This document shows, one piece after another, positions 9,181-31,635 of a stretch of 64,000 nucleotides of DNA. Under the pieces are notes generated by a model. That model ran no database searches and had not been told where the DNA came from. It worked only from the letters and a program-made list of their open reading frames with translations. Both the position numbers and the translations under genes were made by a program. Source of the DNA: Pseudomonadota bacterium. Lineage in GTDB: Bacteria; Desulfobacterota; Desulfobacteria; Desulfobacterales; Desulfolunaceae. Positions within the stretch are counted from its first letter, which is position 1. The number at the start of each line of letters is the position of its first letter. The DNA lies in assembly GCA_018818835.1 (NCBI GenBank), contig JAHIRD010000027.1:124001-188000 (forward strand). The letters run 5' to 3'.

Positions 9181-12100
9181 TGCTGGAAGGCATGGAGAAG
9201 AGCTTCCTGTTGCCTGTCAAAGGGGGTTTGGCAGTTTTCCTGCAAGAGGTTATGAAATCTTTTTTTACTGAAGCGCATCCCTTTTTCTCCTCCCATTTGA
9301 TCGGAAAAGCCGTCTGTGGCCAGGTAAAATCGGTAATCGTCACCAATGGATATCCGGTGTTCATTATACGTGTAATGTAAATCCGAATGGACATATCCGA
9401 TGCTCTGTTTGTCGCCTTTAATCACGGTCAAGGCCCCATTGTCCGTGATGATAAGGGGTATTCGTGCCCCGGCAAAGGTCAGGGTGTTTGATTGGGCATC
9501 GATAAAACAAATACCCGCATCCAGGCCGTCATCCGAAAGCGCATGGCCTGTGTCTTGCTGAAGGGATTTTTTAACGATGACATTAAGCCGTTTGAGAATC
9601 TCACCCGGTGCTCTGCACCCCTCGTCATTAATAATACGGCGTAAACCGGTGGCCGCGATGATCGTCATAAATGCACCGGGAACGCCATGGCCTGTACAAT
9701 CCATAACCCCAATAATAAAACCTGTTTCAAATGTTTCGGCATAAAAGAAATCCCCCCCGATAATATCCCGGGGCTCCCAGATAACAAAGCTGTCCGGCAG
9801 CCATGTTTTAATCTGGTCCGCGTTGGGCAACAGAGACTGCTGAATCATTTTAGCGTAGCGGATGCTTTCCTGGGTATGAGCATTGGCCGCTTCGACTTTT
9901 TCAAGGGTCCGGTTCAGCTCCTGGGTTCGTTCGAAAACACGTTGTTCGAGTTCTGCATTAAGTTTAAGGATCTCTTGTTCAGCCTGTTTCCGTTTTGTAA
10001 TGTCGGTGACCATGGCGAATGAGCCTGACTCCTCGTTTCCGTGGAGCAGCGTTGCATTGAACTGGCAAATCATAACGGAACCATCCGGACGATGGAGAGT
10101 GGCCTCATAGGTGCATTTTTTGTGTTGTCTCAAGATCTCTTTCTGACGTCTCGCGATTTCAAGGCTTTGCTTATCCCAGAACTCAAAAACAGGATGCCCC
10201 ACAAGGTTATCCCGGGGACGCCCAAGAATAGTGCACATTTCAGGATTGACATCTATGGTGATGCCCGCGTTGTCAACCCGCCAGAACCCTTCATTGGCGG
10301 TTTCCAGGATATGGCTTAAATGCTCCCTGGCCTGGGTTATATGTTCATACAGCCGGGCATTTTCAATGGAGATGGCTGCCTGGGAGGCCAAAAGGTCCAA
10401 CACTCTGATCCGCTGGGGAGTAAATGCGCCGATGGTGATATTGTTTTCAAGATAAAGAACACCCACCAATCGAGATTGCCGGATAACCGGATGGCAGATA
10501 ATGGATTTGGATTGATGTTCAACCACATAGGGATCAAGGGTAAAATCGCCTTCGGCAGCGGCATGGTTGAGTATAAGTATGTCTTTTGTTCGCGCCACAA
10601 AATTAACAATGGCAACAGAGAGGCCTGTGTGATTTTGAAGCGGCTCTCCGTTAAGAACCCGAACGCCCTGATCGTCCCCTCCCCGGGCTTCGATGTACAA
10701 CTTTTTATCCGCTTCATTCTCCAGAACCAGGAAGCCTTTTTGCGCTCCGGCGTTTTCTATGGAAAGTGTCAAAACATCCACAAGCAGTTTCCCAAGATCG
10801 ATTTCACTGGAAAGGGACTGGAACGCTTTGATGATGGTCGAAAGATCAAGGGTTTGGGTTCCCGATTCTCTGCTGAACATGAATTCGGATCCCTGATCCA
10901 CGATGCGTGTGCGCCTGTCGTTAAACAGATCCGGATATGTTTCGGCCAGATCCTCTGCCTTTGCCGTCGCGCCCCAGCGTATGTAACCATAGTGCGCTTC
11001 TTTCATGAAGTGACGTGCATCGTCAATGTGATCGCATTCCAGCATGAGACGTGCGGCCAGTTCATTGGCCATGGCTTCGTTCTGGAGATACCCATTGTCA
11101 TGCGCAGATCTGATCGCACGATCATACAGGGACAAGGCTTTGTTGTGCTTCCCCTTCAGGCGTGCGCGTTCAGCCTCAACCAAAAGGTATTTGTGCTCAA
11201 AATTTTCCGGACAGTTTTTAGACCATCGCTTCATCTGACTCTGATTTCGACCCATGATGCAACTGTATTTTCTCTTTTCCCCGGACGAGAGATTTGGGTA
11301 AAGGGCCGCGATGGCAAGGGATGTGTAATAGTTTGCCTCAGCCACATGTAGGCTTGCCAGATAAACTTTATTCTTGATGAGTTCATCCAATTCCAAGAAA
11401 AGCGCAGGACACTTGGAATAATGGCCGAATAGATAATTCAATTGTAGCCGGACAAGGGAAATCAGAAAGACTCCAAGCAGATTATGGGCTTCCCGATACG
11501 CTTCAATATGCTTGTCTGTCTTGAAATTCTGTGTATCCAAATTTCCCCGCCTGTCGGTCAAGCCCTTGAGGCAGTGACAAACCTGGACAATCGCGAGGAA
11601 GTTATACTGATTAAACGGGTCGAGGCTCTCCATCTGGAAATTACGATAATGGTCATATTCTTCCAGTAGCTCATCAATATTATGACCCAGAAACAAACGG
11701 GTTTCACCCAGCAGTTTTACACTGTGGCTGCTGAATATAAGATCACCTGCATCCAGACCTTCCTTGTAGGATTTCCGGAAAAAATCCAAATTGAATTTTG
11801 CGTGTTTCGTCCAGTGCTGAATGGAAAAGGCAAACATCAGTTTTATCTGGCATTTGTTTTTTGAGGTGACAAGCTTTTCGCTGAGTTTTAACGCAGTTTC
11901 ACCGAATCTGAAACCCTGTTTAAAAAAACCAAGGGATGACCCCAAAATAGACCCAATGATTATAAAACAGAAATAGCCGTATTCCGAGGTGCCGTATTTA
12001 AGCTGAAGACTGGCACCCATGATGGATATGTAAGCAAACAAATTCGAATCACTGTAATAGGATACCGTGCCCGTATGAATGGCCAGATTGGCGTAGGCTA

Positions 12101-19826: not shown

Positions 19827-20912
19827 TCAGGGTGCGATCAGTTTATCCATTTGATCAATCAGGATATCCGTCTGATTTTCAAGAACGCTTCCGGTGTGCT
19901 TGAACGTGATGACCCCACCTTTATCGACAATAAAATAAGCGATGTCATGTTTTCCCCAATTATATGTTTTCCATCCCGTGTAAACACCGTATGTTTCCCC
20001 TGTTTTACCGTTCTTGTCATAAAAGAAAATAATTTCCCGCCCATCGACATTCAGTGACGTTGCAAAGTCCATATTCACGGCAGGCAGACTATCATTGATC
20101 CCGAGAATGCCGAAGCCCCTGGATTTAAATTCGTCCAGATTTGCTTTAAATTCACTGTACATTTGGATCCCCTCTTCGGAGGAGGTATTATCGAAGAAGG
20201 TCAGAATAAGGCCGTTTTCGCTTAATTCAAGCTGGTTATATAGTGTTAGATTTGCGCCGCACTGAGCCTGGAGGCCGAAGTCAATGGCATGATCCCCTGG
20301 CTCATTTCCATCATCGTCATGGGTGACAAGCATTCCACCAGCTGTATAGTCTTCCGGGTTGCCGGTATAATGACCCGTCATTTTATCCACTTCCATCAAA
20401 AGTGTCGCGGTCTGATTTTCAAGAAGAGTGGCCGTAGAAATATATTGGAAATGAAGTTCACGGTTTGAGTTGATAAGGTAATAGCCTCGCATCAGCTGTG
20501 ATGAAACAATTCCGTAACTATCCGACACACTGCCGTCAACATCGGAAAGAAATGTAACATCAGGAGCGATGGACTCTGCAAATTGTCTGTGGGATTCAAC
20601 CGATTCCTTATTGATACCTATGACGGCAATACCACGGCTTTTAAAATACTCAATATTTCGCTGAAACTCAGCAAATTCAGCTGTTCAGCCAGGTGAGTTG
20701 TCCAGGATATAAAAGGCAAGGACTGCGCCGTTCATCCCGTCTTCATTGATCAGGTCACTGAGTTTTACCTCAGCATTGTACTGATCCGGCATGGTAAAAT
20801 CCGGTACAGTATCTCCGATTTCAAAAATAGAACTCTGATCGCATGCGACAAAAAAAACAGTCAAAGCAATCAATACGGCGGCTGCACCTATGGCAGTCCA
20901 ATGTCGTTTCAT
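19827..20912 (-). CDS. Selenocysteine peroxiredoxin lipoprotein, tandem domains
   Basis: 361 residues if TGA (20687-20685) is read as selenocysteine 76. AAGGAGG precedes ATG 20912. The signal peptide ends in lipobox FVAC. Domain 1 is a BCP/PrxQ peroxiredoxin: GDTVPDFTMPDQ, AVLAFYILDNSPG-U-TAEFAEFQ, then GIAVIGINKESVESHRQF and FLSDVDGSVSDSYGI. The TGA falls exactly on the peroxidatic cysteine of the DNTPGCT motif, and the frame is open on both sides for the full family length. A SECIS-like hairpin follows the TGA. Domain 2 repeats the fold (FFDNTSSEEG, GFGILGINDS, AYFIVDKGG) but lacks the cysteine; both domains end in similar LENQT segments. It should reduce peroxides in the periplasm. The alternative, a broken gene with a nonsense mutation, is much less likely at this residue. 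Confidence 0.85.
20656..20687 (-). promoter_or_regulatory. UGA codon and SECIS-like hairpin
   Basis: Four bases after the TGA, GCTGAA (20681-20676) pairs with TTCAGC (20665-20660) around a ten-base loop TTTGCTGAGT. Bacterial SECIS elements sit immediately 3' of the UGA inside the coding region and present a G(U)-containing apical loop, as here. Pairing is read by eye. Confidence 0.55.
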
Positions 20913-21290
20913 ATGACCTCCTTTTTAATAAACACGTGTGACCCGTTTCTGCAGCTTCATTTATCATTCGGGGCGAAAGACTCGCACAGCAACTTATCTG
21001 AAGCCATGAACGGAAGTCTCAATGAATAAATATATTGCTGTACATGACCGGACATTAATCGAAAAGTGTTTCTAAAATGTTTCTTTAAATGTAAAATTTG
21101 TTACCGTTGGACGTTAACATCGTCATAAGTCCCATGGGTCCCATACGTCCCAGAGGACTCACAGGCCCCAGAGGAAATACGCCATTTTTATTTCAAAATT
21201 TATTTGGGTATTGTTGGAGTTTGGAAGGAGCGGTGAATAAAAACGACAGGATTTTTCCCAATTAGCAGCAAAACAATCAATAATTAAGGC
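20913..21290. other. Intergenic region with 9-base periodic repeat
   Basis: No gene is seen. The segment at 21121-21174 reads as six imperfect copies of a 9-mer based on GTCCCATRN (GTCCCATGG, GTCCCATAC, GTCCCAGAG and variants). A similar run occurs at 19029-19080. Confidence 0.5.
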
Positions 21291-29562: not shown

Positions 29563-31635
29563 TCATGATTTGACAATTTTATTAACATCGATAATAAGCG
29601 CAACAGTTCCATCTCCCAGTATGGTGGCGCCGGAAATATCCTCAACATCTTTAAATGCTTTACTGAGGTTCTTGATCACGGTCTGGTGGCCTCCGATCAC
29701 ATGATCCACCACAAACCCCACCCGTTTTCCATTGACATCCATAATGACCACCTGTTCAATCGCAGGTCTCGTCTCTCGGATGCCATATTCAGTGCGCAAC
29801 TGGATATAGGGGACAATTTCCCCCCGGACATTCAAAATATGCCGCCCATTTTTCATGACCTCGGTCTCTTTGGGCAGCTCCACACATTCCTCCACAGAGG
29901 ACAGGGGCAGAACAAAAAAACCAGCTCCTATTTTAACAAGAAGGCCGTCAATAATCACCAGGGTCAGGGGCAGTTTCAGATTTATGGAGGTTCCCTGGCC
30001 TTTTTTGCTGTCAAGTTCGATGCTGCCCCTCAGGCTTTCGATACTTTTTTTAACCACATCCATGCCCACACCCCGGCCGGATAGGTCCGTCACTTTTTCC
30101 GCCGTTGAAAAACCCGGGGCAAAAAGAAGACTCTGGATCTCTTTTTCCGTCAAATCCTCATCGCCTTGAACCAGGCCCTTTTCAATGGCCTTTTTCAAAA
30201 TCAGATCAGGATCGAGTCCTTTACCGTCGTCTCGGATGTTGATCAGCACATGGGCTCCAGAGTGCACAGCGGAAAGATGGATGGTGCCTGTCTCCGGTTT
30301 CCCGGATTGCCTCCGGGTTTCTGGCAATTCGATCCCATGGTCAATGGAATTACGAATAATATGGACCAAGGGGTCCTTCAATCGTTCAATCACCGTCTTG
30401 TCCAGTTCGGTTTCACCACCCTGGGTTGTCAGCTCAATGTTTTTTCCAAGCTCATTGGACAGATCACGAACCAAACGCCGGAATGTTGCAAAGGTGGTTC
30501 CAATCTGCAGCATGCGGATGCCCATGGCATTGTCACGAAGGCCGCTGGTCAGGGTCTCCACCTCTTCTGCAATGGACACAAGATCCGGGTCTGACTGGTT
30601 CACGGCCTTCTGGCTGAGACGGGCCTGGACTGTCACCAGTTCCCCCACCAGATCCACCAGTTGATCCAATTTTTCCGCTGGAACCCTGATGCTCGAAGCC
30701 GAGGAAAGATCCGTTCGCTGTTCGATTCGTTTCTTAACCTGCGATTGCTCTGCAAGGGCCGCCTTGACGGCTGTCTTACTGGCCAGTTTTTCATTAACCA
30801 GAATCTCGCCAATCCGTTTCTGGCTTTTCAGGGCCTTTTCAAGGTTCTCCCCTGAAAGTTCGCCCCGTTTCATAAGAATTTCACCCAGTTTGTCATGGCC
30901 GCCCTCTGTCATTCCAAAACCGTCTTCCTCGGCCACCGCCTCAATGGTGATCACAGAATCATCCTCAACAAAAATAAACACATCCTTGATGGCATTTTTA
31001 TCTTTGTCAGTGGTCAGAATAATATCCCAGTAAATATAACAGGATTCGGGTCTCAATTCTTCAAGGGGAGGAATGTTTTCCGTATGGGCCACGATGGTAC
31101 ATTCGCCCAGTTCCTTAAGCTCGTTAAGCAGAAGTAGAGGGTTGGTGCCGGTTGAAAAAATCTCCGGATAGGGGGTGAACCGGATTCGATAGGTGGTCAG
31201 GATCTCCACAGAGGGATGTTGTTCGTTTATCGTTATATCATCGGCATTATCCGACTCACTCGAAGCAAGGAGTTCTTGAAGACCGTCAATGATCATTTTG
31301 GCTTGGGAATCATCCACGGTGTCTTCAGTGTCCGATGCATCCAGAAGAGCTTTAATATGATCCCTTGCTGAAAGAGTAAGGTTCACCAATGTCCGGGTGA
31401 CAGATATCTGACCGCTTCGAACGCGGTCAAAGACCGTTTCCACATTATGAGTGAAATCCGCGATTTCATCAAAACCAAACATGGCACCGGACCCCTTAAT
31501 CGTGTGCATGGCCCTGAAAACTCTCCCGATCTGGTCTTTGTCCTCTGGATTTTCCTCCAGTTCCAACAGAGATGTTTCAAGTTCAGTTAACAACTCGTAA
31601 GCCTCTTCTTTGAAGGCCTTTCTCTGGTCATCCAT
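29563..31635 (-). CDS. cheA: Chemotaxis histidine kinase CheA
   Basis: 690 residues. HPt domain with MHTIKGSGAMFGF (phosphorylated His), a middle region, an inserted piece KRGELSGENLEKALKSQKRIGEILV that resembles an MshEN-type motif, dimerisation helices (VGELVTVQARLSQ), GHKL kinase with DPLVHIIRNSIDHGIE, DDGKGLD and GRGVGMDVV, then a CheW-like regulatory domain. It phosphorylates CheY and CheB. The frame continues directly into the operon's first receptor gene. Confidence 0.96.
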   Translation of the reverse strand: MDDQRKAFKEEAYELLTELETSLLELEENPEDKDQIGRVFRAMHTIKGSGAMFGFDEIADFTHNVETVFDRVRSGQISVTRTLVNLTLSARDHIKALLDASDTEDTVDDSQAKMIIDGLQELLASSESDNADDITINEQHPSVEILTTYRIRFTPYPEIFSTGTNPLLLLNELKELGECTIVAHTENIPPLEELRPESCYIYWDIILTTDKDKNAIKDVFIFVEDDSVITIEAVAEEDGFGMTEGGHDKLGEILMKRGELSGENLEKALKSQKRIGEILVNEKLASKTAVKAALAEQSQVKKRIEQRTDLSSASSIRVPAEKLDQLVDLVGELVTVQARLSQKAVNQSDPDLVSIAEEVETLTSGLRDNAMGIRMLQIGTTFATFRRLVRDLSNELGKNIELTTQGGETELDKTVIERLKDPLVHIIRNSIDHGIELPETRRQSGKPETGTIHLSAVHSGAHVLINIRDDGKGLDPDLILKKAIEKGLVQGDEDLTEKEIQSLLFAPGFSTAEKVTDLSGRGVGMDVVKKSIESLRGSIELDSKKGQGTSINLKLPLTLVIIDGLLVKIGAGFFVLPLSSVEECVELPKETEVMKNGRHILNVRGEIVPYIQLRTEYGIRETRPAIEQVVIMDVNGKRVGFVVDHVIGGHQTVIKNLSKAFKDVEDISGATILGDGTVALIIDVNKIVKS

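Follow-up and report, generated by a model that had tools for sequence, protein, structure and literature searches.

Peroxiredoxins that carry selenocysteine (Sec) are already known; they fall in PF00578 with the motif TxxU, and include the E. acidaminophilum enzyme and PrxU (NF040737). As far as the excerpts of these sources go, Sec peroxiredoxins are listed for several Deltaproteobacteria (PMC1794560) and given as a family (PMC13188914). A second related group is BCP/PrxQ (NF006960, PRK09437; Bcp1, 3drn), in which the peroxidatic residue is the cysteine of DNTPGCT. The gene described here has a UGA codon at the peroxidatic position in an S/TxxU motif, as the Sec peroxiredoxins do, and its DNSPGU stretch corresponds to the DNTPGCT of BCP/PrxQ, the group that supplied both the best NCBIfam model and the best fold match. 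However, the protein differs from the Sec peroxiredoxins in that it is a predicted lipoprotein, has Ile in place of the motif's Pro, contains no resolving Cys in domain 1 and bears a second, inactive domain; its score with PrxU was 33.7 bits against a cut-off of 270. It differs from BCP/PrxQ in scoring below the cut-off, belonging to a subfamily separated in the tree, having a predicted export signal and lacking a Cys five residues after residue 76.

We conclude from the sequence comparisons that the gene very probably encodes a predicted lipoprotein peroxiredoxin with selenocysteine as the peroxidatic residue 76. Sec peroxiredoxins being known, what sets this gene apart is a lipoprotein-type, apparently one-Sec subfamily with a conserved hairpin, together with a tandem arrangement with a dead second domain. 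A literature search, whose coverage was thin for subscription journals, returned no paper with a lipoprotein or periplasmic Sec peroxiredoxin in its title. The initial annotation had proposed selenocysteine in a periplasmic BCP-type peroxiredoxin. Beyond that proposal, the analysis brought out a SECIS-type hairpin, a lipobox-like signal peptide and a degenerate second domain in the gene, and a second tRNA/SelB pair in the same genome.

Gene layout and the codon for residue 76

The gene lies at 19827..20912 on the minus strand of the window, by which we mean the whole 64-kb stretch of DNA that was analysed, and consists of 361 codons and a TGA stop. The frame starts with the ATG at 20912-20910, behind a ribosome-binding site AAGGAGG read from the sequence (20917..20923, minus strand), runs through 75 codons to the TGA at 20687-20685, and continues through 285 codons to the TGA stop at 19829-19827. 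This layout is as the initial annotation had it. Its expectation that automatic gene calling would break the gene at the internal TGA was also borne out, as evidenced by the ORF list, which contains an ATG stub of 75 aa (20685-20912) and a GTG fragment of 233 aa (19827-20528). The Pfam model AhpC-TSA (PF00578) matched the joined 361-residue protein in two stretches with 131.7 bits (gathering score 26). The best stretch covered residues 32-153 and was unbroken across residue 76, and the first 206 residues alone gave an E value of 4.5e-27. Pfam and structure comparison place the first peroxiredoxin domain at residues 32-178 (20379..20819, minus strand), which hold Ser73, residue 76 and Arg142. 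Of the active-site pattern, Ser73, UGA76 and Arg142 are present, and Ile69 replaces the Pro of the published motif PxxxTxxU. Scanning the window for TGA-joined frames listed 13, among which the peroxiredoxin gene ranked eighth by its shorter side. By eye, the larger ones, such as those at 29565 and 37766 (minus strand), appeared to join the tail of one gene to the gene that follows it.

We compared 77 loci, namely the window's own locus and up to 30 best matches from each search (96 relatives, the order and the phylum). A domain-1 alignment was obtained for 76 of the 77, L038 giving none. Once the window itself had been set aside, along with L092, whose sequence is a domain 2 and shows Asn at this position, 74 relatives were counted. 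Among these best-match relatives the codon aligned with residue 76 was TGA in 32/74 and TGC or TGT in 42/74, with no other codon, so every sense codon found there encodes Cys. Of the solved Bcp-type chains shown, the best two have Cys opposite residue 76 and the third (3drn) has Ser. The structure alignment and the homologue codons agree with the earlier proposal that the UGA (20685..20687, minus strand) occupies the place of the peroxidatic Cys of BCP/PrxQ. Eleven loci (L093-L097, L111-L113, L118, L122 and L123), picked by coverage and a common FxEFQ stretch after the UGA, form a close subfamily. They are 29-44% identical to the window's protein, depending on the alignment, align with it to about residue 178, and have TGA at codon 76 in 11/11 cases. 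As a separate observation, six of the 42 Cys cases (L022, L031, L034, L035, L037 and L107) are of a UxxC type, with a TGA of their own three codons before the residue-76 Cys.

Selenocysteine machinery and a SECIS-type hairpin

The initial annotation had named selA, selB and selC as the genes to look for. All three are present in the window's genome (G000; 6.75 Mb in 334 contigs, 97.96% complete, 2.45% contaminated), and selD is as well. There is one selA (607 bits), and two matches each exceeded the cut-off for selB (366.1 and 298.4 bits) and for tRNA-Sec (74.1 and 56.6 bits). The tRNA on C317 is a canonical tRNA-Sec with UCA, G73 and CCA. The selD gene (363.5 bits) has its own in-frame TGA in RAAGUAAK, so a second gene, of a classical selenoprotein family, carries an in-frame UGA in the same genome. 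The search for tRNA-Sec covered 28 genomes with a TGA peroxiredoxin and gave a match above 70 bits in 23 of them, each with UCA and G73-CCA. No tRNA-Sec over the cut-off was found in the other five (G311, G154, G085, G009 and G039). G009 and G039 are 92-93% complete, and this small result counts slightly against the Sec reading unless the assemblies miss the gene. Within the close subfamily, a tRNA-Sec was found in 10/11 genomes, the exception being G311, which is 73% complete.

Folding and comparison across relatives identified a SECIS-type hairpin 17 nt after the UGA (20657..20675, minus strand), with a stem of 8 bp and the loop GUU. The excerpt of PMC13188914 gives the limits of bSECIS elements as a loop of 3-9 nt, a stem of 4-16 bp, a G early in the loop, a spacing of 16-37 nt and a free energy of -7.5 kcal/mol or lower. 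The window's hairpin (-9.0 kcal/mol) lies within all of them, and 5 of the 11 relatives (L096, L112, L113, L118 and L123) have folds weaker than the energy limit. The same 8-bp hairpin is formed in 12/12 sequences, the window and its 11 close relatives. In the 10 distinct hairpin sequences 80/80 cells are paired, with both-sided changes in 2/8 pairs, and when the partner strand was slid, pairing fell to 35-60%. In shuffles the covariation score was reached in 4/500 and the two pairs with both-sided changes in 36/500. Single-sequence folding after the window's UGA gave a z of -1.5, which is not significant against shuffles. When synonymous codons were redrawn with the protein kept, all 8 pairs appeared in 6.3% of the window's draws and in 2.0-25% of those for the others, indicating that the protein sequence favours the pairing without forcing it.

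The unbroken domain across the UGA, the restriction to TGA or Cys codons in 74 relatives, the presence of selA, selB, tRNA-Sec and selD, and the conserved hairpin together argue for Sec. We therefore regard Sec at residue 76 as well supported, short of proof, and the proposal of the initial annotation on this point gains by these results. Decoding would proceed by the canonical SelB bringing Sec-tRNA(Sec) to UGA76 via the hairpin.

Other readings of UGA76

A third known system bears on the reading of this codon, the selC*/selB* tRNA-Cys pair (Mukai 2017, via excerpts of PMC7609411 and PMC9437257). The window's genome has a second tRNA with UCA on G000:C160 (L046 11977-12068, minus strand), directly upstream of the second selB (10001-11926, minus strand). 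This tRNA is tRNA-Cys-like, with an acceptor stem AGGGGCAA/UUGCCCCU of 8 bp, A1:U72, U73 and an encoded CCA. Its likeness to the known pair lies in A1:U72, U73, UCA, the 8-bp acceptor stem and the selB copy directly downstream; these are features that the excerpt of PMC7609411 gives for selC*/selB* of Desulfobacterales. Since tRNA-Sec function requires G73, according to the excerpt of PMC5330540, the U73 tRNA of C160 is probably not a tRNA-Sec. At selenocysteine UGA codons, selC*-type tRNAs bring in Cys, a role posited for conditions of selenium scarcity (PMC9437257, in excerpt). Given these features of the C160 pair and this property of such tRNAs, Cys at UGA76 is possible.

Two readings follow. 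It is conceivable, but rather unlikely, that UGA76 is dual-coded, as Sec by the canonical SelB and tRNA-Sec when selenium is available and as Cys by the second SelB with its selC*-type tRNA when it is scarce. If so, both SelB proteins would use one hairpin, and selC*/selB* would have a natural target in this peroxiredoxin. We consider it improbable that the codon is read wholly or partly as Cys by the C160 tRNA and the second SelB. The tRNA and the selB stand side by side in the window's own genome, as this reading would have it, but among the 11 close-subfamily genomes, which keep the UGA and the hairpin, a second tRNA of the exact U73-CCA type was found only in G180. Unlike the described pair, the C160 locus has no adjacent cysS*, and a CysRS* without the anticodon-binding domain was not found in the genome (97.96% complete), where two of the cysS matches were long (1-464 and 2-459 of 466 profile positions) and four were partial. 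Cys as the normal reading is also opposed by the tRNA-Sec above 70 bits in 23/28 genomes with a TGA peroxiredoxin.

The remaining UCA tRNAs of the close subfamily were read from the matches to the tRNA-Sec family, whose cut-off is 47 bits, so that pairs scoring lower would be missed. In G688, G515 and G630 (L172, L174 and L186) a second UCA tRNA exceeds the cut-off; it has a U beside the acceptor stem and no encoded CCA. G199 has a second tRNA-Sec copy of the canonical type at a contig end. No second match above 47 bits was found in G225, G234, G611, G454 and G610, their next best matches being ordinary Leu, Trp or Ser tRNAs. With the next-best matches read, the UGA and the hairpin are kept without a detected U73 UCA tRNA in 6/11 close-subfamily genomes. 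The relatives without a detected selC*-type pair thus favour Sec. With a selC*/selB*-type pair in the host genome, this gene offers a specific case in which the replacement of Sec by Cys through such pairs can be examined.

One of the two long cysS matches, a CysK-CysRS-like fusion on C100, was considered as the missing CysRS* and was rejected; the match spans positions 2-459 of 466, and the anticodon domain is not missing. The fusion is a 763-aa ORF (G000:C100; L139 2855-5146, plus strand) in which a putative cysteine synthase is joined to a near-full-length cysteinyl-tRNA synthetase.

It is very improbable that the gene is a pseudogene, or that UGA76 is a real stop arising from a private nonsense mutation or a sequencing error. 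In favour of this reading, the active-site residue is gone from domain 2, and the nearest relatives, the own-family genomes G001-G007, are without the gene, the sole hit among them being a weak one in G007 (1.9e-4). However, TGA stands at the same codon in 11/11 close relatives and in 32/74 relatives in total. Because the close relatives come from other genomes, an error or a private mutation is unlikely. In addition, 285 open codons with an intact domain follow the UGA, and the hairpin is conserved. A scan of genome contigs gave one weak relative (L080, 30% identity), and a scan of viral contigs gave none. Finally, readthrough without Sec machinery, for example as Trp via a near-cognate tRNA, is a general possibility that we regard as least credible here, since only Cys or TGA occurs at this position among the 74 relatives and the Sec machinery is present.

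The lipoprotein-type subfamily and the second domain

For the Sec peroxiredoxin favoured above, the location proposed by the initial annotation needs amending. The protein is better described as a predicted lipoprotein than as periplasmic; by eye, a putative signal peptide of residues 1-23 is followed by a lipobox-type Cys24 in VFFVAC (20841..20912, minus strand). By eye, 10/11 close relatives carry a Cys where the signal peptide ends, L112 being the exception. Each of the 11 relatives has one domain and about 180 residues, and by eye the mature part before the stop has no other Cys in any of them, which suggests a one-Sec enzyme. The label BCP-type likewise needs qualifying. BCP is the nearest class, and PRK09437 (NF006960) is the best NCBIfam model for the window's protein, but its 72.3 bits fall short of the cut-off of 140; the subfamily is therefore better called a sister group of BCP. 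No NCBIfam model reached its cut-off for the four members scanned (the window, L093, L111 and L113). In a tree of 26 rows, including 12 chosen Bcp rows, the 11 lipoprotein relatives grouped together at 96/96 and the Bcp rows stood apart at 100/100. The best PDB match of the AlphaFold model was Bcp1 of S. solfataricus (3drn), with a TM-score of 0.86 by target length. These proteins would constitute a subfamily of one-Sec peroxiredoxins, predicted to be anchored in the membrane, which has no NCBIfam name at cut-off in the four scanned and is split by table-11 gene calling.

We propose that the protein is exported and lipid-anchored, and that Sec76, held by Ser73 and Arg142, would attack hydrogen or organic hydroperoxides to form a selenenic acid. 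The subfamily is expected to act by a single Sec, with an external thiol regenerating the enzyme. For the window's protein, Cys218 of the dead second domain may serve for resolution, or the domain may offer a surface for docking; this is the weakest step of the scheme.

The second domain, delimited by Pfam and domain comparison, is a degenerate peroxiredoxin domain at residues 206-358 (19839..20297, minus strand) with Gly248 at the active-site position. Residue 76 aside, the predicted mature part contains just two Cys residues, Cys24 and Cys218 (the latter at 20259..20261, minus strand). A single comparison of the two domains gave 28% identity over 128 columns (E 4e-17), and domain 2 alone scored 36.3 bits with AhpC-TSA, over the cut-off of 26. 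Both domains share an exact 16-nt repeat, at 20410-20425 and 19870-19885. G261 has a 58% identical domain 2 (residues 215-360) with Asn at the active-site position and Cys218 kept in QAQCGANLTLY; the G261 contig breaks off at the point where a domain 1 would adjoin. No full two-domain homologue was found among 96 relatives, 389 genomes of the order, 395 of the phylum and the 30-genome G261 family, which are overlapping sets, the last three thinned by E-value limits; the G261 domain 2 was the only match. The tree places domain 1 with the two domain-2 rows at 85/77, which gives moderate support to a duplication of the domain within this lineage. The AlphaFold model (mean pLDDT 66.8) is fairly good for domain 1 and poor for domain 2. 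It is too poor there for a Sec76-Cys218 distance, pLDDT being <50 at 191-227 and 273-318. The tandem has kept a second domain that is dead at its active site.

Seven of the 11 close relatives adjoin OhrR-like (4) or UGA-containing AhpC-type (3) genes. The OhrR-like gene is divergent beside the peroxiredoxin in G311, G234 and G199, and G225 has OhrR-like and Ohr genes downstream on the same strand. The OhrR-like calls scored 172-189 bits, under the NCBIfam cut-off of 200, and the L093 neighbour matched OhrR structures with E 9.4e-44; Ohr scored 144.5 bits against a cut-off of 88.85. If the predicted anchoring is right, selenium chemistry at the cell envelope would follow, near organic-hydroperoxide regulators in several genomes. 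Just upstream of the peroxiredoxin in G454, G515 and G688, on the same strand, an AhpC-type frame has TGA at its active-site codon (FTFVUATE); from the sequence, these frames lie at L112 740-1129 (plus strand), L118 1352-1741 (minus strand) and L123 2322-2711 (minus strand). Beyond this frame, G688 has an EncB-type gene for an encapsulin ferritin-like cargo (L123 2878-3192, minus strand; 93 bits, cut-off 90). Other neighbours are a rubrerythrin-like gene in G611 and a sigma factor in G180.

The window's own copy has neither an OhrR-like nor a UGA-containing AhpC gene beside it. A 106-aa lipoprotein-like ORF without a Pfam match and putative chemotaxis-type genes lie upstream, and small ORFs lie downstream. 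Over the whole window, Rfam gave nothing at gathering scores and ARAGORN gave no tRNA. A promoter and terminator scan yielded 13 promoter-like sites against 3.9 expected and one terminator-like site, on the opposite strand. About 210 nt upstream of the gene, at 21124-21159, there is a 9-nt-spaced repeat (CATGGGTCC-like) in three imperfect copies.
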